Assembly (NCBI RefSeq): GCF_010672455.1
Contig: NZ_JAAHGO010000001.1
Location: forward strand, 269,766 to 332,827
Direction of reading: 5' to 3'
Length of the DNA: 63,062 bases
Origin: Okeania sp. SIO2C9
GTDB lineage: Bacteria > Cyanobacteriota > Cyanobacteriia > Cyanobacteriales > Microcoleaceae
Position numbers and translations under genes: made by a program. The stretch's first letter is position 1. Each line of letters begins with the position of its first letter. Of this stretch, positions 2,215-63,033 are shown one piece after another. Under the pieces are notes generated by a model. The model was not told where the DNA came from. It worked only from the letters and a program-made list of their open reading frames with translations, and did no database searches.

Positions 2215-2365
2215 GTCATTTCAGTTATCAGTTATCATATCAGTTATCAGTTATCAGTACTTCTACCTGTTTGCGCAGCATTCCGTAGGAAAGTCAGAGA
2301 CTTGAAGTATTGAATTTTATTTTTTTTATCCCCTTGAAAGGAGAGACTTGAGACCTTATTTTTTG
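2215..2365 (-). mobile_element. TTAC-type short element, subfamily A (copy A1)
   Basis: On the minus strand the element starts CAAAAAAT 3' of TGAC and ends in CTGATAA heptamers and CTGAAATGAC. The plus strand reads GTCATTTCAG, heptamers, a CCCCTTGAAAGG-type hairpin, then TTTTTTG. The same site in the next tandem gene unit is empty at 3419/3420 (AAAGTA joined to GTCAGTAATC), which shows insertion without target duplication. Confidence 0.75.
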
Positions 2366-8570: not shown

Positions 8571-8709
8571 TATAGCAATCCTAAATTGGTTGTGGCAATT
8601 TTTATAATAGTTAACTTGAACTGAAAAACTTTAAAATTCTGAGGACTGAGGACTGAGGACTTACTCCTAACTGCCACCAAAATATTACAACTTAAATAGG
8701 ATTGCTATA
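8571..8709. mobile_element. MITE with ATAGCAATCCTA termini (empty-site copy)
   Basis: Begins ATAGCAATCCTAAATTGG and ends CTTAAATAGGATTGCTAT: inverted repeats flanked by TA-rich DNA. A second copy at 51602-51920 has the same sequence with a subfamily-B element inserted after AAAATATTAC. This copy preserves the uninterrupted site at 8688/8689 (TTAC joined to AACTTAAATAGG). Confidence 0.75.
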
Positions 8710-8792: not shown

Positions 8793-8996
8793 TTCAACAA
8801 TGAATAATGAATAATGAATAATGAATAATTACCTCTCTATGAATTGAAGAGGATTGACAAAGAGATGAAAATTTTTCTTCACAGGAGTCGATTGGATATG
8901 GCTCCTTTGACCTCGCCATCCCATCCTAGGTCATGCTGCGCAAACGACCGCTTATTATCCCCTATCCAAGGGGAGGCGCATACCCACAATTTTTCG
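8793..8996 (-). mobile_element. TTAC-type short element, subfamily B (B1)
   Basis: Minus strand: TTAC, then CGAAAAATTGTGGGTATGCG, hairpin CCCCTTGGATAGGGG, GGATATGG region, hairpin CCTCTTC...AGAGGTAA, TTATTCA heptamers and closing TTGTTGAA. A Trp/Ala-rich short frame across it is a by-product of the repeat. Confidence 0.75.
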
Positions 8997-12768: not shown

Positions 12769-12959
12769 TTCAACAATGAATAATGAATAATGAATAATGA
12801 ATAATGAATAATTAATAATGAATAATTAATAATGAATAATTAATAATTAATAATTAATAATGAATAATTACCTCTCCTTGAAAGAAGAGGATTGACTAAT
12901 AATGAAAATTTTTCTTTCTTATCCCCTGAAAAGGGGAGGCTTTAAACCACAATTTTTCG
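12769..12959 (-). mobile_element. TTAC-type short element, subfamily B (B2)
   Basis: Plus strand reads TTCAACAATGAATAATGAAT, heptamers, TTACCTCTCC...AGAGG hairpin, ATCCCCTGAAAAGGGGA hairpin and TTTTTCG next to GTAA. Its heptamer array has drifted from TAATGAA to TAATTAA units. A lone subfamily-A right end (CTGATAACTGAAATGAC, 13020-13042) lies between it and the NACHT gene. Confidence 0.75.
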
Positions 12960-13048: not shown

Positions 13049-16000
13049 CTAATTATCTAGTCGTCGCAATTTCTTTTTTGCCCACTCCCGCAGTTGTTCG
13101 TCTGGGTCATTTTCTACTCTGTCTTGTAATAGTGGGAGGATTTGCGGATGGTCTGGGTAATGTTTGACTATTGCTTCTAGTGCTGTTTGTCGAGGGTTGC
13201 CTTGAAACTCATTTTCACGTTGAAAGGGGTCATTGAGGGTAATGTGATAAAACAATTCTAAAACTCCCGACTCATTTTTCCAACCAGTAGCAATTTGTCG
13301 CACCGCTTCAAGTCGTACATACCAATTCTCATCAGACACTACCCATTGTTTGAGTAATTCTAAAGTTTCCGGTTGATTTTTCCAACCAGTAGCAATTTGT
13401 CGCACCGCTTCAAGTCGTACATACCAATTCTCATCAGACTCTGCCCACTGTTTGAGTAACTCTAAAGTTTCCGGTTGATATTTCCAACCAGTAGCAATTT
13501 GTCGCACCGCTTCACGTCGCACAGTCGAACTATCATCAGACTCTACCCATTGTTTGAGCAATTCTAAAATTCCCGGCTGATTTTTCCAATCAGTAGCTAT
13601 TTGTCGCACTGCTTCTCGTCGCACATCGCAATTCTCATCAGACTCTACCCATTGTTTGAGCAATTCTAAAATTCCCGGCTGATTTTTCCAACCAGTAGCC
13701 ATTTGTAGCACCGCTTCAACTTGTACACTCGAACTATTACCAGACTCTAAACTTTGTTTGAGTAATTCTAAAATTCCCGGTTTATCTTTCCAACCAGTAG
13801 CTATTTGCAGCACCGCTTCAACTCGTACATCCCAATTCTCATTAAACTCTACCCATTGTTTGAGTAATTCTAAAATTCCCGGTTTATTTTTCCAGCCAGT
13901 AGTTAGTTGTCGTATCGCTTCAACTCGCACACTCGAACTATTACCAGACTCTACCCATTGTTTGAGTAAATCTAAAGTTCCCGGTTCATGTTTCCAACGA
14001 GTAGCAATTTGTCGCACTGCCTCCCGTTGCACATCCCAATTCTCATTAGACTCTACCCATTCCTTGAGTAACTCTAAAATTTCTGGTTTGTCTTTGTATA
14101 AAGTAGCAATTTGCCGTACCGCTTCTCGTCGTATATCCCAACTAGAATCAAACACTACCCGTTGCTTGAATAACTCTAAAATTTCTGGTTTGTCTTTGTA
14201 TAAAGTAGCAATTTGTCGTACTGCTTCCCGCCCGGCAACCCAATTATTACAATATACTAGCTGTTGTTTGAGCCAAGTATAGGTTAAAGGGTCATCCCTC
14301 CAGGTTGCAGCCACTACTGCCACAGCTTGAGTACGAATTTTATGAACTAAGGCTGCATTTTTCTGATAAATTTCTTCAGAGCTAATGTTGTAAGATTTGT
14401 AAGAATAACCACGGTCATACTCAGCCAAATCTTTTAACCTATTTAATAACCGAGACACCACATCACCAATACCATGACGACTCCTAACTTCAGACAAACA
14501 CTTGCCAGCCAAAAATAAATTATTAAACTCTTCTGCTTTCCCATCTTGCTCTATCAAATAACTAATAATTTCTCCCACAAACTTCGCATCAATCATCCCC
14601 GCAATTAACCGCAACACCTCATGCCATTTTTCATCCTGCCAATGCTTACCAAAAACATCCTCAATTAATTCATCTTTAGAAATTTTCTGTTCCTTTTCAA
14701 ACTGCAAAACAAAACTCCAAGCACAAAAATATTCCAAAAAAGTTCGATGCACAAAAGCATAATATTCAGCTCCAACAAAACACAAAACAAAATTCCGACT
14801 CCGCAACTGTTCCATCAACGCCCTAGCCACACCTCTAGCATCATTAATATCTACACTTTTTAGATACTCCCAAATAATCCTTTCTAAATCATTTCCTAAA
14901 ATCAAATTACCAGCCAAACCAGCAATATTTCCCTGCATAAAAAAAGCTACTCGACGCAAAATTGCTTGCTTATCTTTATAGTCAATAGTAATCGGGTCAA
15001 TCTTCGCATCAACTAACGCTCTTTCCATATCCCATTGATGTAACAAAACCCGCGAAGCTTGATTATAAAGTTCAGCTCTATCTCTCGGTAATTCTTGATG
15101 ACGATTCAAGATAGCCATCATAGTTAATAACAGAGGATTTCCTGCCAATTCTTTAATAGCTCGAGAATCCTTCATTGCCCGTTTCAACCTTTCCCTTTTC
15201 CTCTCCCTTTCCGCCTCATCTTGATAAGTCAGATTATGCCAACGTTGAATAAAATCCTCAACTTGTTCCTCTTGCAAATCCTGCAACATAAAATGGTAAA
15301 ACTCAGCATCCCGGAGTTTTTGTGGCTTATAACCAATCACCCGCGAAGTAACAATAACCCGCACATTTTTATAGACATTAGTAAACCGATGAATATCAGT
15401 AATTATTTCCTCTCGTTTTGCTGGCTCAAAAACTTCATCCAATCCATCAAACATCACAATAGCATCGCCATTTTGTAATTTTGCATCGAGTTCCTGTTGA
15501 GGTAATTGACAAATTATTCCGCTACCTTTTTCCAGAAAATCCAGAAAATTCTTGCATTTATTAGCATCATAGTTCCGAACATAAGTCCGCAGTTCAATTA
15601 ATATAGGAATTGGCTGTAAATATAAATCTTTCCGAGGTAATTCTGCCCATTGGAGAGCGATATATTGTAATAAAGTAGACTTACCAGAACCGGGGTCGCC
15701 CAGAATCACTAAATATTGATAATTACTATTTTCTATTAACTCTAAAACCGAGCGAGTATGCTGTTCAAAATATCTCCGTCTGAGACCTTCCAATTGTTCT
15801 TGAGAAAAATCTTCTCCAAACTGCCCAGTCTCTTTTAATCGCTGCCGATATTCTTTAGGAATTTCATGTACTTGAGGCAGAAATTCCTGAGATTCCCGGA
15901 CATTTTGAGGAATAAACATTCCCCATAATTTCAATTGATTATAAGCATAACCACTCGTATCTAAACTTTCTAATTTCAGATTTCCATATTGTTCAACAAT

Positions 16001-16920: not shown

Positions 16921-17087
16921 CGAAAAATTGTGGGTATGCGCCTCCCCTTTTAAGGGGATAATAAGCGGTCGAGGGATGGCGAGGTATCCTCGCCATATCC
17001 AATCGACTCCTGTGAAGAAAAATTTTCATCTCTTTGTCAATCCTCTTCTTTTCAAGGAAAGGTAATTATTCATTATTCATTGTTGAA
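16921..17087 (+). mobile_element. TTAC-type short element, subfamily B (B3)
   Basis: Preceded by TTAC (16917-16920); begins CGAAAAATTGTGGGTATGCG, hairpin CCCCTTTTAAGGGG, AAGCGGTCG, GGCGAGG...CCTCGCC hairpin, GGAAAGGTAATT, ATTATTC heptamers, and ends CATTGTTGAA. It lies 125 bp upstream of the racemase and may have replaced part of its promoter region. Confidence 0.75.
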
Positions 17088-22066: not shown

Positions 22067-22269
22067 CGAAAAATTGTGGGTATGCGCCTCCCCTTGGATA
22101 GGGGATAATAAGCGGTCGTTTGCGCAGCATGACCTAGGATGGGATGGCGAGGTCTCGGAGCCCTATCCAATCGACTCCTGTGAAAAAAAATTTTCATGAA
22201 TTTGTCAATCCTCTTCTTTTCAAGGAGAGGTAATTATTCATTATTCATTATTCATTATTCATTGTTGAA
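22067..22269 (+). mobile_element. TTAC-type short element, subfamily B (B4)
   Basis: Preceded by TTAC (22063-22066); starts CGAAAAATTGTGGGTATGCG and ends in ATTATTC heptamers and CATTGTTGAA. The interior carries CGTTTGCGCAGCATGACCTA and a GGATGGCGAGG block. It ends 120 bp before the capA start. Confidence 0.75.
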
Positions 22270-22388: not shown

Positions 22389-24816
22389 ATGTCTAAAAAA
22401 ATTAATATCAATTTATTAGGGCAAATAATTTTTTGCTTAACAATATTCCTTTTCCTAACTCTATATTTTTATCCCGCACCAGCCAAAGCTTGGTCTCTCC
22501 AGGAATCGTTGAATCCCTTAGTAGCTGAAGAAATGCGTCTGGAGCGTCAGTATCAAAACACCCCCATTCAGATACAGGGCAGAATTGTGGGAACTGAAGA
22601 TATCCCTCTAAGTAATATAAAAGTTCGTCTGGGGGATAAACAGACAGTTACTAATATTTCGGGAGAGTATTTCTTTCCCTCCATACCTCGTCAAAACAAA
22701 CTTTTGGAAATTGATACCCCCGACTATTACCAGGAAATCATTCCTCTAGTTCTAACATTACCCCTGACAACCTCTCAAGTGGAAGTCGCACCTATTCCTT
22801 TAGTAAAACGGATAGACTCGAAAACTCGATTTCTGTTTGGAGGAGACGTAGCAATGGGTAGGCGGTTTCTCGACCCAGAAAAGAAAACCCCCCGCAATAA
22901 AATTCCTCCAAATAACCGTGATGCTCTAATTCAAGCCTCCCATCCCCAAGATGGAAGTGCCAAAGTGCTAGAAGATTTACAACCTCTATTTCAACCTAAT
23001 GTCAGCGATTTTCGCAGTGTAAATTTGGAAACCCCAGTCCTAGATAACCCAAAAACACCCCATTGGGCTAAACCCTATAGTTTTTTTACCGAAAAATTCT
23101 GGGTATGCGCCTCCCCTTTTAAGGGGATAAAAAAAGAGAATATTTCAGATTTCAAGCCTCCTTATTGCAGAGGTACTGATAACTGATAACTGATAACTGA
23201 TAACTGAAATGACCCTCCCCGAATCAGTCCAAGAACTCTATAAATTAGGAGTTAATTATGTAACCCTAGGTAACAACCATCTCTGGGATTATTTAGCATC
23301 TGGGTTAACTACCACTATAGAAAATTTACAACATATTGGTCTGGCCTACAGTGGCGCTGGACTCACCCCAACTACAGCCCAACGCCCCTATCATCTCAAT
23401 TTGGGAGATGCAGAATATGCTCTGTTTTCTTTTTCTTCCATTGCTGGCGATCACTATCCAGAACCCCTACAATTTGTGGCCACAGAAAATCAGGGAGGTG
23501 CCGCAGACCTCCGTGACATGACAAAAGTAGAAGCCTTAATTGCCCAGGAACGAGACCAAGGACGATTTCCGATTGTCCAACTACACACAGGCACTGAGTA
23601 TACATACACCCCTACATCCTATGTAGAAAACCTGATGGACAAAGTAGCAAGTGCTGGAGCTGGACTGGTCTTGGGACACCATCCTCATGTGGCTCAAGGT
23701 TTAGGGTTTTATCATGGTGTGCCCTTATTTCATAGTCTCGGGAACCTGGTCTTTGATTCCGATCGCCTGGAAACTTTCTTGGAATTAGTAGCTCTGGCGG
23801 ATATCCAAGAACGAGAAGTCACCAAACTCCAGGTTATACCTGTTTATTTAGAAGACTATCGTCCCCAACTCATAGGAGGAGACCTAGCAAATAGATTTAT
23901 TCGTAGAATAGGGGAATTTTCTCGCGATGGAGTACTAGTCTATCCCTATCTCAATCGGGGTTGGGTTTCCCTGAAAGGGGCAGATCAATCTAATCTTAGT
24001 ATCAAAGAATACAGTTTTGATGTTCCTGTTATGGTAAATGAAAATGAATCGGCAGTGGTAGATTTACGGGCGATCGCTCCCAGTGAAGCATCGCTTTATC
24101 AGGTGGAAGTCAGCGCTGGTGAAATATCCCAACTTAGTTTAGGGCGGGATATTATGGCATTTGGTGACGCAGAAGATTGGGACATGGACTCAGAACAACA
24201 GGATATAAATCGTTGGGCGGTATCTGAGAAAGGGAAAACATCCTTTCCTTGTTATCAAGGGTCACATCAAGGCATTACCGGGATTTGTCTAGAGCGATCG
24301 GCTAATAATCGTCAGGTTGCAGTAGTTCCGTTTCGCCAAAGAATGCGAGTATTTGAAGATGCAAGCGATCGGCCGGAGAAAGATTTGACACTGTTGGGAT
24401 ATGTAAGAGGGGAAAATGCAGGTTCAATAGAGCTGAAAGTTCGGTATAGTGCTAGTGAAGGAGAGCAAGCTTTTGGAGATGAGATTGTTTTTACTCACCC
24501 CGGTCATACTTTTGAATGGGAACCTATTGTTGTAGACTGGAACATACCCAAGGATAGGCATCCAGAACAAGTGGTCAATCCAAAAAAAGATAACCCCCGT
24601 GCTGTGATGCTCTGGCTCCGTCACTATCCTCCTGAAAAAGGGAAAGGAATTGCGATGTTTGATGATTTTGCCTGTGTGAGTTGGGAAAAGCCTCTAGAGT
24701 TGAAAAATCTGATTCAACTTAATGTTCCCCACGCCCGCGACTTTTTAAAATTGACAGGTTCTCCTGGTTTAGCCAAACTCCACCTTACCTTTCGGGCTTT
24801 TAAACCTCAATTTTAG
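22389..24816 (+). pseudogene. capA: CapA/PgsA-type poly-gamma-glutamate protein, split by a 124-bp insertion
   Basis: A signal peptide or anchor (about 8-34, ending PAKA) and a carboxypeptidase-regulatory-like beta domain (about 58-140) lead into the CapA metallophosphatase-like domain: FLFGGDVAMGRRF and VNLETPV before the break, then TLGNNHLWDYL, LGHHPHVAQG and HSLGNLVFD after it, and about 270 C-terminal residues. The 5' part (22389-23187) runs into the inserted element and stops. The 3' part is open from 23209. Joining 23089 to 23214 restores YSFFTLPESV in frame, so the gene was one about 765-residue protein. The insertion separates the catalytic motifs, so neither half should be active unless the element is lost. 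pgsB and pgsC follow on the same strand. Confidence 0.8.
23090..23213 (+). mobile_element. TTAC-type short element, subfamily A, inside capA (A2)
   Basis: Inserted after TTAC (23086-23089): starts CGAAAAATTCTGGGTATGCG, hairpin CCCCTTTTAAGGGG, GCCTCC...AGAGGTA, then CTGATAA heptamers and CTGAAATGAC (ends 23213). Flanks join without duplication to give an open frame, so both boundaries are fixed by the host gene. Confidence 0.9.
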
Positions 24817-30365: not shown

Positions 30366-33050
30366 CTAAAATCCTTTTAAAGTTTTCAGAGCAAACTTTT
30401 GTACTTGCTCATCTAAGTCATTTTCGGCTCGATCGCACAATATCTGGAAAATTTGAGTCTTTTCTTGATATTGTTCAAGAATTACCTCTAACGCAGTTTG
30501 GCGCGGGTTATCCTCCCATTCTTCCTGACGTACAAATGGATCTGAATAGGCTCGAACGCCGAAAAATTCAAACATTCCAGGATCGTCATGCCAACCTAAA
30601 GCTAACTGCTGTATTGCCGAACGTCGTACATAAAAATTATCATCAGACTCAGCTAGTTTCTTGAGCATAATAACAGCACAAGGATCGTTTTTTCCGAGCA
30701 GAGCAAATAATTCTAAAGCAGTTTGTCGCACATAAAAACTACGATCGCTCATCGCTACTTTTTTGATAATTGCTATTGTCTCAGGGTCATGTTGCCAACA
30801 AATACCCAACTCAACCACTGCTGTTTGTCGAACGCACACATCCTCATCAGAAATAGCTAATTTTTTAAATAACGCTAATGTCTCAGGGTTATGTTTCCAA
30901 CCGAGAGCTAATTGCTGCATTGCTGCTTGTCGTACTTCTCGTTCATCTGTAGACTCAACCCTTTGTTTGAGAATAGTCAAAGTATCAGGATCATCTTTCC
31001 AACCGAGAGCTAATTGCTGCATTGCTAGCTGTTGTAAATCTGGGCATTGAGCCGATACTGCCAGCTTTTTGAGAGCAGATATGGTCTCAGGATCATCCTT
31101 CCAAGTAGTAGCTAATTGTAGGACTGCTGACTGTTGTAGCTCAGAACAATTGCCAGACACAACCAGTTGTTTGATAATATCTAGAGTGTCAGGATCGTCT
31201 TTCCAGTCTGTAGCTAACTGTTCCATTGTTGCTTGTTGTACATAAGAACACGGATCGTCAACGGCTTGTTGTTTCAACCAAGCTAAGATATTAGGGTCAT
31301 TCTTACCATCATTGCCTAATTTAACGACCGCTGCTACTCGTACATCTGAACATTGATCGGATACAGCAATTTCTTGCAGAGTTGCCAAAGTATCATGGTC
31401 ATTTTTCCAAGTAGTAGCTAATAATTCCATTGCTGCTATGCGTACTTCTGAAAATTTATCGGACAATGCTGCTTGTTTAATAGTAGCGATCGCCTCTGGG
31501 TCATCTTTCCAACCTGTGACTAACATCTCCATTGCTGCAATTTGTACATCGTGGCGATCGTCAGACAAAGCAACTTTTTTGATGACTGCAAAAGTCTCAG
31601 GATCGTCATGCCAAGCAGTAGCTAGTTGTTCAACTGCTAACTTCCTAGCGTGCCAACAGTCATCTTCGACAACAACTTGTTTGAGAATAGTCAAAGTATC
31701 AGGGTCATCTTTCCAACCTATAGATAATTCTCGTATTGCTGCTACTCGTGCATCGGAGTTAGACAGAGCCAATTTTTTCAGCAGAGCTAAAACACAAGGC
31801 TCATCTTTCCACCCAACAGTTAATTGTGCTACTGCTATCTCTCCCACTACCCAACATTCTGGAGACTCCGCCTGTTGTTTGAGAAAAGTCAACACATCTG
31901 GGTCATGTTGCCAAAATGCACCCAACTGTACCACTGCCAGTTCTCGCATCCGCCAACATTCATCTGACTGCACAACCTGTTTGAGAATAGCTACTGTATC
32001 AGAGTTTTTTTGCCAGTTTTCGATCAAATAGCCCATTGCTGCTTTTCGCACTTCTGAAGCTGTGTCTGATATAGCCAATTTTTTCATAATAGTTACTGTA
32101 TCAGAATTTTCCTTCCAATCTTTTAGTAACTGTTCCACTGCTGCCAGTCGGACATGAGAACATTGATCAAATTCTGCCAGTTGTTTGAGGGTTGAAAGCG
32201 TTTCTGGATCGCTTCCCAAATTTTCTGCTAGTTGACTCATCGCAGCTCGTCTTACCTCTGAAGCTTGAGCAGACAAAGCCAACTGTTTCAGAATAGTTCC
32301 GGTATCAATGTCATCTTTTGCCAGTTTGGCTAACTTGAATACTGCTTCTGAAGCTACATAGGGGCTTGGATCTGACATTGCCATTCCTTTGAGCCAAGCT
32401 AAAGTCTTACTATCGTATTTCCCATCTTGATTTAATTTTTCGATGATGATTAAACGTACTCCCCAATGTTTATCTGATTCAGCCCTTTGTCTGAGCCAAG
32501 TGAGAGTATCTAGATCTTGCCAACCTTCAGCTAAAAGTTCTACTGCTGTTTCCCGTAAAGCTTCATCAACATCGGAGACAGCTCGTTGTTTCAAGAATGC
32601 TAGGGTATCTGGCTCATTTTGCCAGTTTTGGGCTAACTGTTTGAGTGCTGCATAACGTACATTTGAGGTACGATATTGATCTGCCAAAATCAGTTGTTTC
32701 AGGAAAGCGATCGTATTTGGATCGTCATGCCAACCTGTAGTTAATTGAGTAAGTATGGGTTCTTGCACCCACCAATATTCGTTGTTAGATACTACAAATT
32801 GTTTGAGAAAAGGTAATATACTAGGATCGTTTTGCCAACCTTGGACAAGATATTCTGTTGCAGCTCTCCGTACATCTGGACATTGATCGGATATAGCTAA
32901 TTGTTTAAGAATAGCTAAAGTATCCGGGTTATTTTTCCATTCTATGGCTAGCTCTTCCAATGCTGCTATTCGCTGTTCTGGGTCTTCGTCAAACACTACT
33001 TGACGTTTCAGGGAAGATAAAGTGTGAGAGTCATTTTTGAGGATTATCAT
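30366..33050 (-). CDS. HEAT-repeat-only paralogue of the NACHT-HEAT protein
   Basis: 894 residues, almost wholly about 25 HEAT-like repeats of 34 residues (consensus VRQAAMQQLALGWKDDPDTLTILKQ). The C-terminal cap (NPRQTALEVILEQYQEKTQI...) matches that of the NACHT protein (13049-16564) closely. There is no NACHT domain; the first ATG (33050) opens inside a repeat-like segment (SLKRQVVFDEDPEQRIAALEELA) and the frame is closed by TGA 27 codons upstream. It could be a stand-alone scaffold or sensor array, or a NACHT protein that lost its N-terminus. Acidic, soluble. Repeats here are more diverged than in the NACHT protein, so expansion is older. Confidence 0.8.
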   Translation of the reverse strand: MIILKNDSHTLSSLKRQVVFDEDPEQRIAALEELAIEWKNNPDTLAILKQLAISDQCPDVRRAATEYLVQGWQNDPSILPFLKQFVVSNNEYWWVQEPILTQLTTGWHDDPNTIAFLKQLILADQYRTSNVRYAALKQLAQNWQNEPDTLAFLKQRAVSDVDEALRETAVELLAEGWQDLDTLTWLRQRAESDKHWGVRLIIIEKLNQDGKYDSKTLAWLKGMAMSDPSPYVASEAVFKLAKLAKDDIDTGTILKQLALSAQASEVRRAAMSQLAENLGSDPETLSTLKQLAEFDQCSHVRLAAVEQLLKDWKENSDTVTIMKKLAISDTASEVRKAAMGYLIENWQKNSDTVAILKQVVQSDECWRMRELAVVQLGAFWQHDPDVLTFLKQQAESPECWVVGEIAVAQLTVGWKDEPCVLALLKKLALSNSDARVAAIRELSIGWKDDPDTLTILKQVVVEDDCWHARKLAVEQLATAWHDDPETFAVIKKVALSDDRHDVQIAAMEMLVTGWKDDPEAIATIKQAALSDKFSEVRIAAMELLATTWKNDHDTLATLQEIAVSDQCSDVRVAAVVKLGNDGKNDPNILAWLKQQAVDDPCSYVQQATMEQLATDWKDDPDTLDIIKQLVVSGNCSELQQSAVLQLATTWKDDPETISALKKLAVSAQCPDLQQLAMQQLALGWKDDPDTLTILKQRVESTDEREVRQAAMQQLALGWKHNPETLALFKKLAISDEDVCVRQTAVVELGICWQHDPETIAIIKKVAMSDRSFYVRQTALELFALLGKNDPCAVIMLKKLAESDDNFYVRRSAIQQLALGWHDDPGMFEFFGVRAYSDPFVRQEEWEDNPRQTALEVILEQYQEKTQIFQILCDRAENDLDEQVQKFALKTLKGF

Positions 33051-38790: not shown

Positions 38791-39073
38791 ATATCATGTC
38801 CGTTTAATTAGTTATAATAAAGTTCTTAGGTGGTAGGTGTCATTTCAGTTATCAGTTATCAGTTATCAGTTATCAGTGAACCTCCGACTGAAGTCGGAGG
38901 CTTGAAATACTGAACTAAATATTTTTTTCATCCCCTTAAAAGGGGAGGCACATACCCTCATTTTTTGGTAAATTCAAGTCATCACACTGGAAACGGAGCA
39001 GAAATTTGGGATATTCCTTCAAGATCGCTTCAACAGAACATTTTTATTATACTTAATCATCCGGACATGGTAT
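38791..39073. mobile_element. MITE with ATATCATGTCCG ends, filled by a TTAC element
   Basis: The outer ends, ATATCATGTCCG and CGGACATGGTAT, match (reversed) the MITE at 21264-21426. A 129-bp subfamily-A element (38839-38967) lies inside. Body sequences CACTGGAAACGGAGC and AAGAACATTTTTATTA-like blocks agree between the two copies. Confidence 0.75.
38839..38967 (-). mobile_element. TTAC-type short element, subfamily A, nested in a MITE (A3)
   Basis: Plus strand starts GTCATTTCAG after TAGGT and ends TTTTTTG before GTAAATTCAAG. The empty twin (21361-21375, reversed) joins TAGGT to GTAAATTCAAG directly. The insertion is 3' of TTAC on the minus strand, with no duplication. Contains a CCTCCGACTGAAGTCGGAGG hairpin. 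Confidence 0.9.
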
Positions 39074-40142: not shown

Positions 40143-40338
40143 CGAATAATTAATAATTAAATAATTCTGGTTTAAAGCCTATCCTTTTAAGGGGAAAAAA
40201 GCGGTTGAGATATAGCAAGGTCTCCTCGCTGTCCGACCATCGACCAACAGAAGAAATAATATTTCCTTATATTCAATTCCGTAGCGGTTAAAACCCGAGG
40301 TAATTATCAATTATCCATTATCCATTATCCATTAATTA
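40143..40338 (+). mobile_element. Degenerate subfamily-B element (B9) downstream of lspA
   Basis: TTAC (40139-40142) then CGAATAATTAATAATTAAAT, CCTTTTAAGG hairpin, AAGCGG, GGTAATTATC and ATTATCC heptamers. It lacks the TTGAA end. It ends about 14 bp from the lspA stop. Confidence 0.5.
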
Positions 40339-40351
40339 ATTCTTCCTTCTA

Positions 40352-43494: not shown

Positions 43495-43623
43495 CGAAAA
43501 ATTGTGGTTTAAAGCCTCCCCTTTTAAGGGGATAATAAATAAAAATTGTCCTTTGAATCAATCCTCTTCTTTTCAAGGAGAGGTAATTCTAAATTCTAAA
43601 TTCGCGCATTCTAAATTCTTGAA
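43495..43623 (+). mobile_element. TTAC-type short element, subfamily B (B7)
   Basis: TTAC (43491-43494), CGAAAAATTGTGGTTTAAAG, CCCCTTTTAAGGGG hairpin, CCTCTTCTTTTCAAGGAGAGG hairpin, then CTAAATT heptamers and TTCTTGAA. It shows that the terminal heptamer differs between copies (CTAAATT here, ATTATTC elsewhere) while the closing TTGAA is kept. DNA from 43624 to 44078 has no gene. Confidence 0.7.
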
Positions 43624-45005: not shown

Positions 45006-45067
45006 TATTATTGATCATAGTAAAGGAGTTAAGTTAATTTTAACTTGGCATCTTCACTACTAAAATA

Positions 45068-45174
45068 TTTAACCTATATTTAACCTATATTTAACCTATA
45101 TTTAACCTATATTTAACCTATATTTTGCCTATATTTAACCTATATTTTGCCTATATTTAACCTATATTTAACCT
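45068..45174 (+). promoter_or_regulatory. Array of ten Pho-box half-sites upstream of pstS1
   Basis: TTTAACCT at 45068, 45079, 45090, 45101, 45112, 45134, 45156 and 45167, and variant TTTTGCCT at 45123 and 45145, all exactly 11 bp apart with ATA spacers. The cyanobacterial PhoB-type regulator SphR binds YTTAACCT direct repeats with 3-bp spacers, usually two or three. The last unit ends 65 bp before the pstS1 ATG. Confidence 0.88.
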
Positions 45175-45239: not shown

Positions 45240-46325
45240 ATGCCACCTAGTATCAATCTTAGTCAAATAATTCGTAATACTTCCAAAGTATCTTTAGTAG
45301 CCTTAACAATTGGTCTAGCTACTACAATTACCGGAATCAAATATGGCCTTGCTCAACAAAAAGTCAACCTTGTAGGTGCAGGTGCATCTTTTCCAGCTCC
45401 CCTATATCAACGTTGGTTTGCTGATATGAGAGATAGTCGTTCCGATGTTGGGGTAGATTATCAATCAGTTGGTAGTGGTGCTGGTGTCGAAAGATTTACT
45501 CAAGAATTGGTAGATTTTGGTGCTAGTGATGTGGCAATGAAAGATGATGAAATTGCCAAAGTTGGTAGAGGGGTAATGATGCTACCTATGACTGCAGGTA
45601 GCGTTGTCTTAGCTTACAATTTACCAGGTGTATCCGACCTAAAATTATCCAGGGAAGTTTATGTAGATATCCTTTTGGGTAAAATAACAAAGTGGAATGA
45701 CCCCAAAATAGCTGCTGCTAATTCTGGTGTGAGTCTACCAGACCAAGCAATTACTGTAGTTCATCGTTCTGATGGTAGTGGAACTACAGGAGTTTTTACG
45801 AAGCATCTGAGTGCTATTAGTCCAGAGTGGAAGCAGAAGGTAGGCGAAGGAAAAACAGTTCAGTGGCCTACAGGTGTAGGTGGTGCTAAAAATGATGGTG
45901 TAGCTGCTTTAATTCGTCAAACAGAGGGTGGCATAGGTTATGTGGAATTTGGTTTTGCTAAGAGTGCTGGTCTCCCCACTGCAGCTTTGGAAAATAAATC
46001 TGGCAGTTATGTGAAAGCTTCTTTGGAGTCTGCTAAGTCTACTCTAGCAGCAGTGAAGTTACCAGGAAATCTGCGTGCTTTTATTAGCGATCCTGAAGGT
46101 GGTGGTTCTTACCCTATTGTTACTTACACTTGGATGCTGATTTATGGCCAATATGATGATGCAGCGAAAGCTCAGGGTATAGAGAAAATGATTGAGTATG
46201 GCTTAAATGAGGGTCAAAAGGTAAGTGCTGATTTAGGTTATATTCCACTCCCCGACAATGTTCGTCAGACAGTTGCATCTGCTGCTGATAAAATTAGCTC
46301 AGGTTACAAAATAAGTCTCAAGTAA
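45240..46325 (+). CDS. pstS: Phosphate-binding protein PstS (SphX-like), copy 1
   Basis: 361 residues. N-terminal export signal (about 1-38, LVALTIGLATTITGIKYGLAQQ) without a lipobox Cys, then the PstS fold: GAGASFPAPLYQRWF, SVGSGAGVERF (phosphate loop), HRSDGSGTTGVFTKHLS (second phosphate loop) and YVEFGFAKSAGL. It binds periplasmic phosphate for PstCAB. Its Pho array predicts strong induction in phosphate starvation. No Shine-Dalgarno is evident. About 75-80% identical by eye to copy 2 downstream, so a tandem duplicate with a free rather than lipid-anchored end. Confidence 0.93.
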   Translation: MPPSINLSQIIRNTSKVSLVALTIGLATTITGIKYGLAQQKVNLVGAGASFPAPLYQRWFADMRDSRSDVGVDYQSVGSGAGVERFTQELVDFGASDVAMKDDEIAKVGRGVMMLPMTAGSVVLAYNLPGVSDLKLSREVYVDILLGKITKWNDPKIAAANSGVSLPDQAITVVHRSDGSGTTGVFTKHLSAISPEWKQKVGEGKTVQWPTGVGGAKNDGVAALIRQTEGGIGYVEFGFAKSAGLPTAALENKSGSYVKASLESAKSTLAAVKLPGNLRAFISDPEGGGSYPIVTYTWMLIYGQYDDAAKAQGIEKMIEYGLNEGQKVSADLGYIPLPDNVRQTVASAADKISSGYKISLK

Positions 46326-46553: not shown

Positions 46554-46847
46554 TTCAACAATGAATAATTAATAATGAATAATTAATAATTAATAATTAA
46601 TAATTAATAATTACCTCTCCATGAATTGAAGAGGATTGACTAATCATGAAAAATTTTTCTCACAGGAGTCGATTGGATATGGTTCCGAGACCCGCTCTTA
46701 TCAGAGCCGCTCCGCTGTTAGCGTTTGCGGTAGCATTCCGGAACGGAAAGCTTTGCGGTAGCAAACGCCATCCCACCCTTCGGGAAGCTGCGCTAACGAC
46801 CGCTTATTATCCCCTTAAAAGGGGAGGCGCATACCCACAATTTTTCG
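46554..46847 (-). mobile_element. TTAC-type short element, subfamily B, enlarged (B5)
   Basis: Plus strand: TTCAACAATGAATAATTAAT, heptamers, hairpin, GTCGATTGGATATGG, then about 100 bp of extra palindromic DNA (CCGCTGTTAGCG..., GCATTCCGGAACGG, CTTCGGGAAG) and CTTATTATCCCCTTAAAAGG, ending TTTTTCG before GTAA. An internal insertion into the element explains its 294 bp. Confidence 0.7.
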
Positions 46848-47317: not shown

Positions 47318-48415
47318 ATGCAATTTGCTATTAATCTTGCTCGAATAGCTCGTACAACTGCAAGAATTTCTGCAGTAGCTTTGACAATTGGTTTAGCTGC
47401 CTGCGGTGGTGGCGGTGACACTGATGGTACAGGTGGAGGTGGAGGTGGTCAAGTCAACCTCGTTGGAGCAGGAGCTTCTTTTCCAGCACCTCTCTATCAA
47501 CGTTGGTTTCAAGAGCTGAGTCAGAGTGACCCTAACTTACAGGTAGATTATCAGTCAGTAGGTAGTGGAGCTGGTGTTGAGAGATTTACTCAAGAATTAG
47601 TAGATTTCGGTGCTAGTGATGTGGCAATGACAGATGAGGAAATTGCTCAAGTTGGTCGGGGAGTCATTTTGCTACCGATGACTGCAGGTAGTATTGTATT
47701 AGCTTACAATTTGCCTGATGTTTCTGGTGTAAAACTTTCTAGGGAAGTTTATGTAGACATATTATTGGGTAAAATTACTAATTGGAATGACCCTAAGATA
47801 GCTACAATTAATCCTGATGTAACTTTGCCAGATCAAACAATTACGGTTGTATATCGTTCTGATGGTAGTGGTACAACTGGAGTTTTCACGAAGCATTTAA
47901 GTGCTATTAGTCCAGAATGGAAAGAGAAAGTTGGAGAAGGTAAAACTGTTCAATGGCCTACAGGTGTAGCAGGTGCTAAAAATGATGGTGTAGCTGCTTT
48001 AATTAGTCAAAGCAAGGGAGCAATAGGTTACGTTGAGTATGGTTTTGCTAAGAGTGCTAGTCTGAATATAGCTTCCCTGGAAAATAGTTCTGGTAATTAT
48101 ATAGAACCTACTGCTGAATCAGCAACTGCCACTTTAGAAGCAGTAGTATTACCTGAAAATCTACGAGCTTTTATTACTGACCCAGAAGGGGAAAATTCTT
48201 ATCCAATTGTGACTTACACTTGGATGCTTGCTTATGGTCAATATGATGATGCAGGTAAAGCTCAGGGATTAGAAAAAATGATTGAATTTGGCTTAAATGA
48301 AGGTCAAAAAATTAGTGGTGAAATAGGTTATATTCCTCTACCTAATAATGTACGTCAAAAAGTTTTAGAAACTGCCGATAAAATTAGCCCAGATTACAAC
48401 ATTACTCTCAAGTAG
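47318..48415 (+). CDS. pstS: Phosphate-binding lipoprotein PstS, copy 2
   Basis: 365 residues from ATG 47318, chosen over the in-frame TTG at 47288 because it gives a clean lipoprotein signal (MQFAINLARIARTTARI... LTIGLAAC, lipobox LAAC). A Gly-rich linker GGGGDTDGTGGGGGG precedes the mature PstS domain with the same two phosphate loops as copy 1 (GAGASFPAP, RSDGSGTTGVF). It is membrane-anchored and a likely LspA substrate. Own Pho box upstream. pstC begins 400 bp later. Confidence 0.93.
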   Translation: MQFAINLARIARTTARISAVALTIGLAACGGGGDTDGTGGGGGGQVNLVGAGASFPAPLYQRWFQELSQSDPNLQVDYQSVGSGAGVERFTQELVDFGASDVAMTDEEIAQVGRGVILLPMTAGSIVLAYNLPDVSGVKLSREVYVDILLGKITNWNDPKIATINPDVTLPDQTITVVYRSDGSGTTGVFTKHLSAISPEWKEKVGEGKTVQWPTGVAGAKNDGVAALISQSKGAIGYVEYGFAKSASLNIASLENSSGNYIEPTAESATATLEAVVLPENLRAFITDPEGENSYPIVTYTWMLAYGQYDDAGKAQGLEKMIEFGLNEGQKISGEIGYIPLPNNVRQKVLETADKISPDYNITLK

Positions 48416-48690
48416 CATCAAATAAATGGCGTTGCATAAATGTGCTTGGGATTTTAATAGTATTGTGTAGTATTGTGTAGTATTGTAGAATGGGCAAGAT
48501 GCCCATTCCCATTCCCGTTCCCGTTCCCGTTCCTGATATTTTCATTGCAGGCAAGGTGTAGAGAATTATAAATTGAGTATATTGTACTAATTTTGAGATA
48601 AAATAACATCAAAATTAACCAGATAAAGCCTCTGATGTTGACTCAATAATTCCTGGAAGATGTATATACCTATATTGAGGTAGATAGAGT
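48416..48690 (+). other. pstS2-pstC spacer, first part
   Basis: GGCGTTGCATAAATG, a MITE-end-like fragment, GTAGTATTGT repeats, and hexamers of CCCGTT (48503-48533). No gene. Confidence 0.4.
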
Positions 48691-48803
48691 TTAATAATTG
48701 ATAATTTATAATTACCTCTTCCTTTTAAAGAGAGGATTGAATAAAAGGAAAATTAATTCATTATTTTTCCTTTAAAGGAGAGGCTTTAAACCTTAATTAT
48801 TCG
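48691..48803 (-). mobile_element. Subfamily-B element (B8) next to the pstC start
   Basis: Plus strand: AATTGATAATTTATAATTAC heptamer-like end, CCTCTTCCTTTTAAAGAGAGG hairpin, CCTTTAAAGGAGAGGC, ATTATTCG before GTAA. The element ends 12 bp before the pstC ATG, so any ribosome site must come from the element or be absent. Confidence 0.65.
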
Positions 48804-51601: not shown

Positions 51602-51920
51602 ATAGCAATCCTAAATTGGTTGTGACAATTTTTATAATAGTTAATTTGAATTGAAAACCTTTAAAATTCTGTACGTCGCCCTACCAATGGCTCCCCTACC
51701 ACCAAAATATTACCGAAAAATTTTGGGTATGCGCCTCCCCTTTTAAGGGGATAATAAGCGGTCGGGGGATGGCGAGGTCTCCTCGCCATATCCAATCGAC
51801 CAAGAGAAGAAAAATTTTCATGAATTTGTCAATCCTCTTCTTTTCAAGGAGAGGTAATAATTAATAATTAATAATTAATAATTAATAATTAATTGTTGAA
51901 AACTTAAATAGGATTGCTAT
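51602..51920. mobile_element. MITE with ATAGCAATCCTA ends, filled by a TTAC element
   Basis: Same termini and body as 8571-8709 (ATAGCAATCCTAAATTGG, ATAATAGTTAA, CCACCAAAATATTAC ... AACTTAAATAGGATTGCTAT) with a 187-bp subfamily-B element inserted after TTAC 51710-51713. Lies between pstA and pstB. Confidence 0.85.
51714..51900 (+). mobile_element. TTAC-type short element, subfamily B, nested (B6)
   Basis: Starts CGAAAAATTTTGGGTATGCG directly after TTAC and ends AATTAATTGTTGAA before AACTTAAATAGG. The empty site at 8688/8689 reads TTAC-AACTTAAATAGG, so both ends are exact and no bases were duplicated. Two hairpins (CCCCTTTTAAGGGG; GGCGAGG...CCTCGCC) and AATTAAT heptamers inside. Confidence 0.92.
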
Positions 51921-54822: not shown

Positions 54823-54997
54823 GTCATTTCAGTTATCAGTTATCAGTTATCAGTTATCAGTACCTCTGCAATAAAGAGGCTTCAAATATGGCATAAGTTC
54901 TTTTCTCTTAGTCGATTAGATATGGTCAGGATTTATCGCCATCTCTCGACCGCTTTTTATCCCCTTAAAAGGGGAGGCTTTAGACCACATTTTTTCG
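54823..54997 (-). mobile_element. TTAC-type short element, A/B hybrid (A4)
   Basis: Plus strand: GTCATTTCAG, CAGTTAT heptamers, TACCTCTGCAATAAAGAGG hairpin (A-type end), then GTCGATTAGATATGG and CTCTCGACCGC (B-type body) and CCCCTTAAAAGGGG, TTTTTTCG before GTAA. It shows A and B are forms of one family. Confidence 0.7.
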
Positions 54998-62760: not shown

Positions 62761-63033
62761 CTAACAAATGTTATGAGTTTTTGTTTTCCTTTTTTCCCTA
62801 CTTAAGTTATTTCCCAACAACTCTAATATATTTATTGCTGCGTTGGTATCGCGATCGTGTTTGGCACCACAGTTAAGGCATTCCCACTCTCGCACTTGAA
62901 GGTCTAATTTGCCTCCTTTAAAACCACAATTAGAAATTAAAGTCAGTGAAGAGGTCGCCCCCTCCACTGCTCTCCAGAACGCAGCATGATAGTTTCCCAT
63001 CACTGCGCTCCTCAGTAAAACAGCTATTGTCAT
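62761..63033 (-). pseudogene. TnpB C-terminal fragment
   Basis: ISNCGFKGGKLDLQVREWEC, LNCGAKHDRDTNAAINILEL: TnpB zinc-ribbon remainder and RuvC-III Asp. The preceding residues (AVLLRSAVMGNYHAAFWRAV) are not TnpB and derive from an inserted palindromic sequence. Possibly continues beyond the window's right edge in another frame. Confidence 0.65.

Follow-up and report, generated by a model that had tools for sequence, protein, structure and literature searches.

A gene-less TTAC-targeting element in Okeania sp. SIO2C9 and the guide and target sequences of its family

The insert and its empty counterpart

The window analyzed here is a stretch of 63,062 nucleotides from a draft assembly of Okeania sp. 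SIO2C9 (contig NZ_JAAHGO010000001.1, positions 269,766 to 332,827 of the forward strand), and positions are counted from its first letter. It contains genes for PstC, PstA, and PstB, each scoring above its NCBIfam cut-off. The spacer between pstA and pstB is occupied by a miniature inverted-repeat transposable element (MITE; 51602..51920, + strand) with terminal repeats TAGCAATCC and GGATTGCTA, and this host MITE in turn carries the subject of our analysis, an insert of 187 bp (51714..51900, + strand). The insert lies directly downstream of a TTAC target (51710..51713, + strand), which is retained as its left flank and left cleavage site.

A second copy of the host MITE in the window provides an empty paralogous site (8679..8700, + strand). 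In the filled copy, AAAATATTAC ends at 51713 and is followed by the insert (CGAAAAATTTTGGG...TTAATTGTTGAA) and then by AACTTAAATAGGATTGCTA; in the empty copy, AAAATATTAC (8679-8688) continues directly into AACTTAAATAGG (8689-8700), the same right flank that starts directly after the insert in the filled copy. The junction permits no sliding, and there is zero target duplication. An earlier note on this DNA had described two MITE copies that differ by one insertion, placed exactly 3' of TTAC, and had taken the pair as proof of mobility. The insertion is as exact as described, but the two host MITEs also differ at scattered single bases and in an internal stretch of about 30 bases (approximately 51675-51703 in the filled copy and 8644-8674 in the empty one); the pair shows a past insertion and says nothing of present activity. 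Our surveys of copies, flanks, and filled/empty sites cover 1.65 of the 10.88 Mb of the genome, in which the strict right arm of the host MITE is uninterrupted in four occurrences and has a gap of 187 in a fifth. Of 19 Okeania loci compared with this sequence, two match it over 863 to 1603 bp at 81 to 86%, which makes a relationship to Okeania likely.

Unoccupied orthologous sites, which the note had proposed to look for, were found in congeners (G001 to G004; the window's own genome is G000). The pstA-pstB spacer of G001 contains the right part of the host MITE only, without its left arm; it is empty and has one T fewer at the site. No host MITE is present in the orthologous spacers of G002, G003, and G004. 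Another copy of the element (48690-48803, - strand) is filled in G000 and G001, whereas the site is empty in G002, where GTTTAC is followed by CTCTATTTACCTC, and in much the same form in G004. Most simply read, the movement took place once these species had diverged.

When predicted as single-stranded DNA, the fold of the insert reaches -35.5 kcal/mol compared to -17.6 (standard deviation, 3.2) for 200 shuffles, a z score of -5.6. It shows three hairpins: a left subterminal one (51735..51751, + strand; the CTCCCC/GGGGAT region), a middle one (GGTCG...CGACC; 51758..51802, + strand), and a right subterminal one (CCTCTTCTT-TTC-AAGGAGAGG; 51834..51854, + strand). Immediately before the right hairpin lies the tetranucleotide CAAT (51830..51833, + strand), a right guide that predicts cleavage at TGAA, and TGAA is indeed the right cleavage site and end of the element (51897..51900, + strand). 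Before the left hairpin lies the putative left guide region, GGTATGCG (51726..51733, + strand), with TGCG at the guide position (51730-51733). The two ends, CGAAAAAT... and ...TTGTTGAA, are not mutual inverted repeats, so that an element with no terminal inverted repeats and two subterminal hairpins, as first described, is borne out by both the ends and the fold. In the family at large, the right tail, and in some classes also the left spacer, consists of tandem heptamers in variable number.

A search with 60-nt left flanks returned 68 rows at 26 loci, of which 10 were accepted as filled/empty loci, 8 were unclear (C13:56150, C13:65014, C2:-5521, C2:109934, C24:59529, C24:184390, C24:690395, and C252:-15484; in some, the tetranucleotide is altered in the empty copy), and 8 were tandem repeats or alignment noise. 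The pair described above is missing from the 26 because the 60 nt to its left differ too much. At each of the 10 accepted loci, one or more empty copies have an exact TTAC, and the target is not duplicated. In the clearest, a 181-bp insert interrupts a tnpB gene for which there are 12 uninterrupted paralogue rows, 11 with TTAC and one with TTGC. At four of the 10, the insert sits on the opposite strand within a sister copy's right tail, between AATTAC and CTC; the element provides a target in its own tail. Inserts at filled/empty loci range from 112 to 441 bp, and both TGAA and TGAC right ends occur among them. Immediately 3' of TTAC, the empty site has C in 8 of 15 pairs, a count that includes three unclear pairs and the pair at 51714-51900, which has A; IS608 is reported to favor C at this position (PMC5934647). 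Read from the sequence, the element enters directly 3' of TTAC, which is kept without duplication, and carries a hairpin near each end; in much of the family, the tetranucleotide immediately before each hairpin fits the cleavage site under the IS608 pairing scheme.

Guides and targets across the family

The family is abundant. The sequence TTACCGAAAAATT occurs 515 times in the genome, versus once for a reversed control pattern. It is present in 35 of 39 relatives and is far above the reversed control only in G001 to G004, G010, G011, G016, and G021 (28 to 266 copies). The insert had no match among 72,556 plasmid records and no Rfam family at gathering score, and a longer heptamer string had no match in viral contigs.

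Left-end boundaries were set by anchoring on the hairpin, since profile coordinates misplace CAAAA relative to CGAAA ends. Among 185 profile matches, 131 had the hairpin foot and 105 gave a boundary from the body alone; the 26 ends excluded from the boundary set have mostly heptamer spacers. As the earlier note expected of further copies, TTAC forms the left flank of most ends, preceding 39 of 46 with AAAG at the guide position, 29 of 31 with TGCG, and 10 of 11 with TGTG.

We read the guides by the scheme known from IS608, which joins the first guide base to the second site base, the second guide base to the first site base, and the fourth bases of both to each other. For IS608 itself, the combinations are AAAG with TTAC on the left and GAAT with TCAA on the right, including the pairs A+16:T-3 and A+17:T-4 (PMC5934647). 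Our search pattern for left ends allowed any base at two places, the second of the site and the first of the guide, and kept the remaining pairing bases constant, so that one pairing position is tested. The pattern matched 344 times in five genomes; the 150 matches listed comprise 25 from G003, 89 from G000, and 36 of the 72 from G002, with none from G001 or G004. Among these, the left guide pairs with the target at the tested position in 140 of 150 (T:A, 105; G:C, 27; C:G, 7; A:T, 1), giving the classes TTAC/AAAG, TGAC/CAAG, TCAC/GAAG, and TAAC/TAAG, and the exceptions are G.A (5), C.A (2), A.C (1), G.G (1), and T.C (1). In a shuffle test on 149 of the matches listed, 139 paired, whereas 20,000 shuffles averaged 85 and never exceeded 103. 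The 150 rows are related, and therefore the pairing count is not a count of independent events. Nevertheless, the backbone CGAAAAATTGGG occurs with AAAG, GAAG, and CAAG, together with TTAC, TCAC, and TGAC, respectively, and the backbone CAAAAAATNAGG occurs with AAAG, CAAG, GAAG, and TAAG. Because single backbones carry several guides, the guide has changed more than once.

At the right end, words were sought as set patterns, which tests their association; it is the filled/empty pairs that define the boundary. By the scheme, TGAA is expected with CAAT and TGAC with CAAG. CAAT was accompanied by TGAA in 41 of 51 cases (neither in 10) and CAAG by TGAC in 16 of 18 (neither in 2), with zero crossed cases between these two guides. 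The right guide of the copy at 51714-51900 fits the first of these combinations. Judged by these counts, guide and target covary naturally, within one genus and one clade of transposase. No account of such natural covariation within one genus was found in the literature searched, which left most subscription journals outside.

The other copies in the window represent several of these classes. Variant-B left ends, described below, follow TTAC in elements ending in TGAA at 8793..8996 (- strand), 16921..17087 (+), 22067..22269 (+), and 46554..46847 (-). AAAG follows TTAC in elements ending in TGAA at 12769..12959 (-) and 43495..43623 (+) and in the copy at 48690..48803 (-), whose end has decayed to TAAA. 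Three copies end in TGAC with CAAG on at least one side: 2215..2365 (-) has a CAAG left end after TGAC, 23090..23213 (+) joins a variant-B left end to a CAAG right end, and 38839..38967 (-) joins a variant-B2 (TGTG) left end after TTAC to a CAAG right end. The copy at 40143..40340 (+), the right boundary of which is approximate, has a heptamer spacer in its left end and follows TTAC. The copy at 54823..54997 (-) misfits the scheme, with an AAAG left end after TTAC, a right guide GAAG, and a TGAC end. Among the window left ends examined, TTAC precedes 12 of 13, and the remaining one has TGAC with guide CAAG.

Other repeats were observed in the window. An Rfam group II intron match (RF00029, 51.6 bits) lies near its end at 62936-63012 on the minus strand. 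Coding-like tandem repeats of 102 nt fill two regions, 13152-14369 and 30569-32964; from the 34-codon period, we would guess that these possibly encode HEAT-type repeat proteins. An eleven-base tandem array of ATATTTAACCT occupies 45065-45174. Upstream of pstC, two copies that are 82% alike (45452-45751 and 47542-47841) are probably two phosphate-binding protein genes.

Transposase relatives, variant B, and alternative explanations

The assignment to the IS200/IS605 type, made earlier from the target site, gains support from gene-carrying relatives. We used as the query a TnpA of 129 residues from G021, which matches the IS200/IS605 family transposase model at 127 bits (cut-off, 55) and also Y1_Tnp. 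Its clade, at 72% identity or more, comprises nine matches including itself, in G021, G003, G001, and G010. At all seven clade loci that could be read, the family left end sits at the tnpA 3' end, although some of the tnpA genes are broken. The combination is TTAC/AAAG at L362, L363, L375, and L364 and TGAC/CAAG at L361, L369, and L370, with left ends in which TTAC is followed by CGGAAAATT or CAGAAAATT and TGAC by CGAAAAAATG. On the basis of the left ends at these seven loci, one enzyme clade occurs with two targets, each with its own guide. In G003:C5 the element is complete, with left end, tnpA, tnpB, and a GAAT/TCAA right end in about 1.7 kb; at G001:C479, no long tnpB frame was found in the stretch read. 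The window's own contig also contains, at C1:42127, a tnpB-only element whose left end is TTAC/AAAG. Guide RNAs of TnpB are usually encoded where the 3' end of tnpB meets the right end of the element. Both parts are retained in a gene-less deletion derivative of such an element at C24:144590 (G000), which could supply guide RNA in trans. One candidate for a matching source, L035, was rejected; it has the family left end but is what remains of a tnpB-only element after deletion, and a different MITE has entered alongside. These genomes also contain an IS200 family unrelated to this one, in which guide GGGT accompanies a CCAA left flank at 7 of the 8 loci examined, as the scheme predicts (L032, L143, L149, L150, L156, L158, and L163; GGGT was fixed in the search and CCAA read freely).

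Taken together, we consider that the insert is very probably a non-autonomous, IS200/IS605-derived element (a PATE-like MITE) moved as single-stranded DNA by a Y1 HUH transposase, TnpA; the single-strand chemistry is inferred. TnpA would bind both hairpins on one strand, the guides would bring TTAC and TGAA into the active sites, the element would be released as a circle of single-stranded DNA, and its next TTAC would be selected by the left guide. The enzyme may act in trans, from a tnpA-plus-tnpB element of the clade seen in the relatives, now lost or unassembled in G000; alternatively, one of the distant TnpA genes remaining in G000 could supply it.

Several observations weigh against this interpretation. 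Although Y1 TnpA elements with such a left end, which the earlier note had proposed to look for, exist in relatives, the draft assembly of G000 has no TnpA of the clade; it has 20 Y1 matches, several of them pieces of one gene, of which the best two are 43 and 44% identical and none has a clade-type left end. None of the tnpA elements seen carried a CAAT/TGAA right end, and only the left end is common to the insert's family and the TnpA elements. At the right end, one GAAG and one of four GTAG guides finish in TGAC. In the heptamer-spaced GAAG class, 12 of 25 rows have TTACCG, one has TGACCG, and none has TCACCG, the rest being cut or decayed; since it follows TTAC, this class would need a G.T pair. 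Finally, the guide position of variant B (TGCG or TGTG) makes no Watson-Crick pair with either T of TTAC. The expected pairing of guides with cleavage sites is thus present at the right end of the copy at 51714-51900 and in the canonical left classes, and it fails at the variant-B left guide.

The copy at 51714-51900 belongs to variant B, with GGGTATGCG where canonical copies carry GGTTTAAAG. With ACC fixed on the left, we counted 327 such left ends in five genomes (222, 20, 31, 23, and 31, with the 222 in G000), and TT precedes ACC in 318 of them (218, 19, 29, 23, and 29); variant B is the largest left-end class counted in G000. At the two T positions of TTAC, the TGCG of this copy gives T.T and G.T, and because of this misfit, we do not file it as IS608-type at the left end. 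Variant B keeps TTAC without a fitting guide, so that the accepted scheme either is incomplete or has had a part replaced. The main rival here is that variant-B copies were inserted with a canonical AAAG guide and converted to B afterward by recombination among copies. B and canonical copies have interiors and right ends in common, and a guide changed after insertion would leave TTAC intact despite the misfit. We nonetheless regard conversion as doubtful in view of the 222 B copies in G000, compared to 20 to 31 in each of the four congeners, and of eight B2 left ends that, at different sites, match one another exactly over 52 nt. A two-base shift that reads the guide as TATG or CATG was rejected, as its first base is T in G000 and C at a G021 locus while the target remains TTAC. 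Alternatively, variant B might select TTAC by a second guide mode, in which the crossed four-base guide of IS608 gives way to GGTA, which would pair in simple antiparallel fashion with the TACC that spans the cleavage site. The fold pairs TACC with GGTA (left-end +13 to +16) unprompted. However, two TGAC-flanked B copies in the sequence read show no compensating change, which leaves the pairing without covariation support, and we think this mode unlikely. If true, then together with the AAAG, CAAG, GAAG, and TAAG classes, one cyanobacterial genus would show a DNA-guided transposon both reprogrammed in nature and provided with a different kind of guide.

Two explanations would dispense with an IS200/IS605 origin. 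In the first, the insert is a palindromic repeat of the REP/RAYT type, mobilized by a domesticated TnpA of the REP-associated kind, for which GTAG is the recognition tag. The enzyme superfamily is the same, and GTAG-tagged repeats are reported in cyanobacteria (PMC3733652), a point in favor of this origin. The family, by contrast, has two unlike hairpins, inserts of 112 to 441 bp, and a TTAC target; GTAG is at the right guide in only 4 of 93 assigned rows, and the clade TnpA that reaches 127 bits with the IS200/IS605 model scores 27 bits with the REP-associated model, below its cut-off of 80. We therefore judge it very improbable. The second, an ordinary MITE of a DDE-type transposase lying after TTAC by chance, would suit a short, high-copy-number element nested within another MITE but is scarcely credible given accepted filled/empty loci without target duplication, ends that are not inverted repeats, and left ends that belong to Y1 TnpA elements.

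Comparison with known systems

The tail of the CAAG/TGAC class is an array of TAACTGA, a heptamer repeat already published (PMC4679880). Our scan found at least 107 stretches, and the matches listed comprise 92 arrays at 80 loci (L227-L306). Among these, arrays lead directly into AATGAC in 11 of 26 cases in Okeania and 2 of 66 elsewhere, and CAAGCC lies 50 nt or less before 10 of the 26 arrays in Okeania and 2 of the 66 elsewhere; the Okeania arrays thus often belong to the right tail of the element. We therefore rejected the idea that TAACTGA repeats are a general by-product of the element; with 2 of 66 listed arrays outside Okeania leading into AATGAC, the element does not explain these repeats generally.

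The tnpB-only element at G000:C1:42127 resembles the insert in its TTAC target, the AAAG found in canonical copies, and a left hairpin of the same design. It differs in carrying tnpB, in its right pair, GAAT/TCAA, and in a right end unrelated in sequence to that of the insert. PATEs, gene-less elements with IS200/IS605 ends, are described from archaea and, by citation, from some cyanobacteria (PMC4853749, PMC7290912). The window element shares the absence of genes and the type of ends, whereas its family numbers hundreds of copies, combines left and right ends as modules, and shows guide/target covariation. Type II MITEs of Anabaena sp. 90 are characterized as short, with three inverted-repeat regions and no recognized parent insertion sequence (PMC3542288). 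A link to the window element is only a suggestion. The family may supply a mechanism for cyanobacterial MITEs that lack a recognized parent.

The closest model is IS608 of Helicobacter pylori. Common to both are insertion 3' of TTAC, the lack of duplication, subterminal hairpins, and the AAAG/TTAC combination, and the right end of the complete G003 element is the IS608 pair GAAT/TCAA. Unlike IS608, the window element is gene-less, the right ends of its family are CAAT/TGAA and CAAG/TGAC, heptamer arrays fill the tails, and variant B has no fitting left guide. IS608 has been retargeted in the laboratory by changing its guide (PMC5934647). The Okeania family, with its natural series of four guide/target pairs, shows that this laboratory reset has a natural counterpart, which arose more than once in one genus and with one transposase clade, and it offers a ready series of guide/target pairs.
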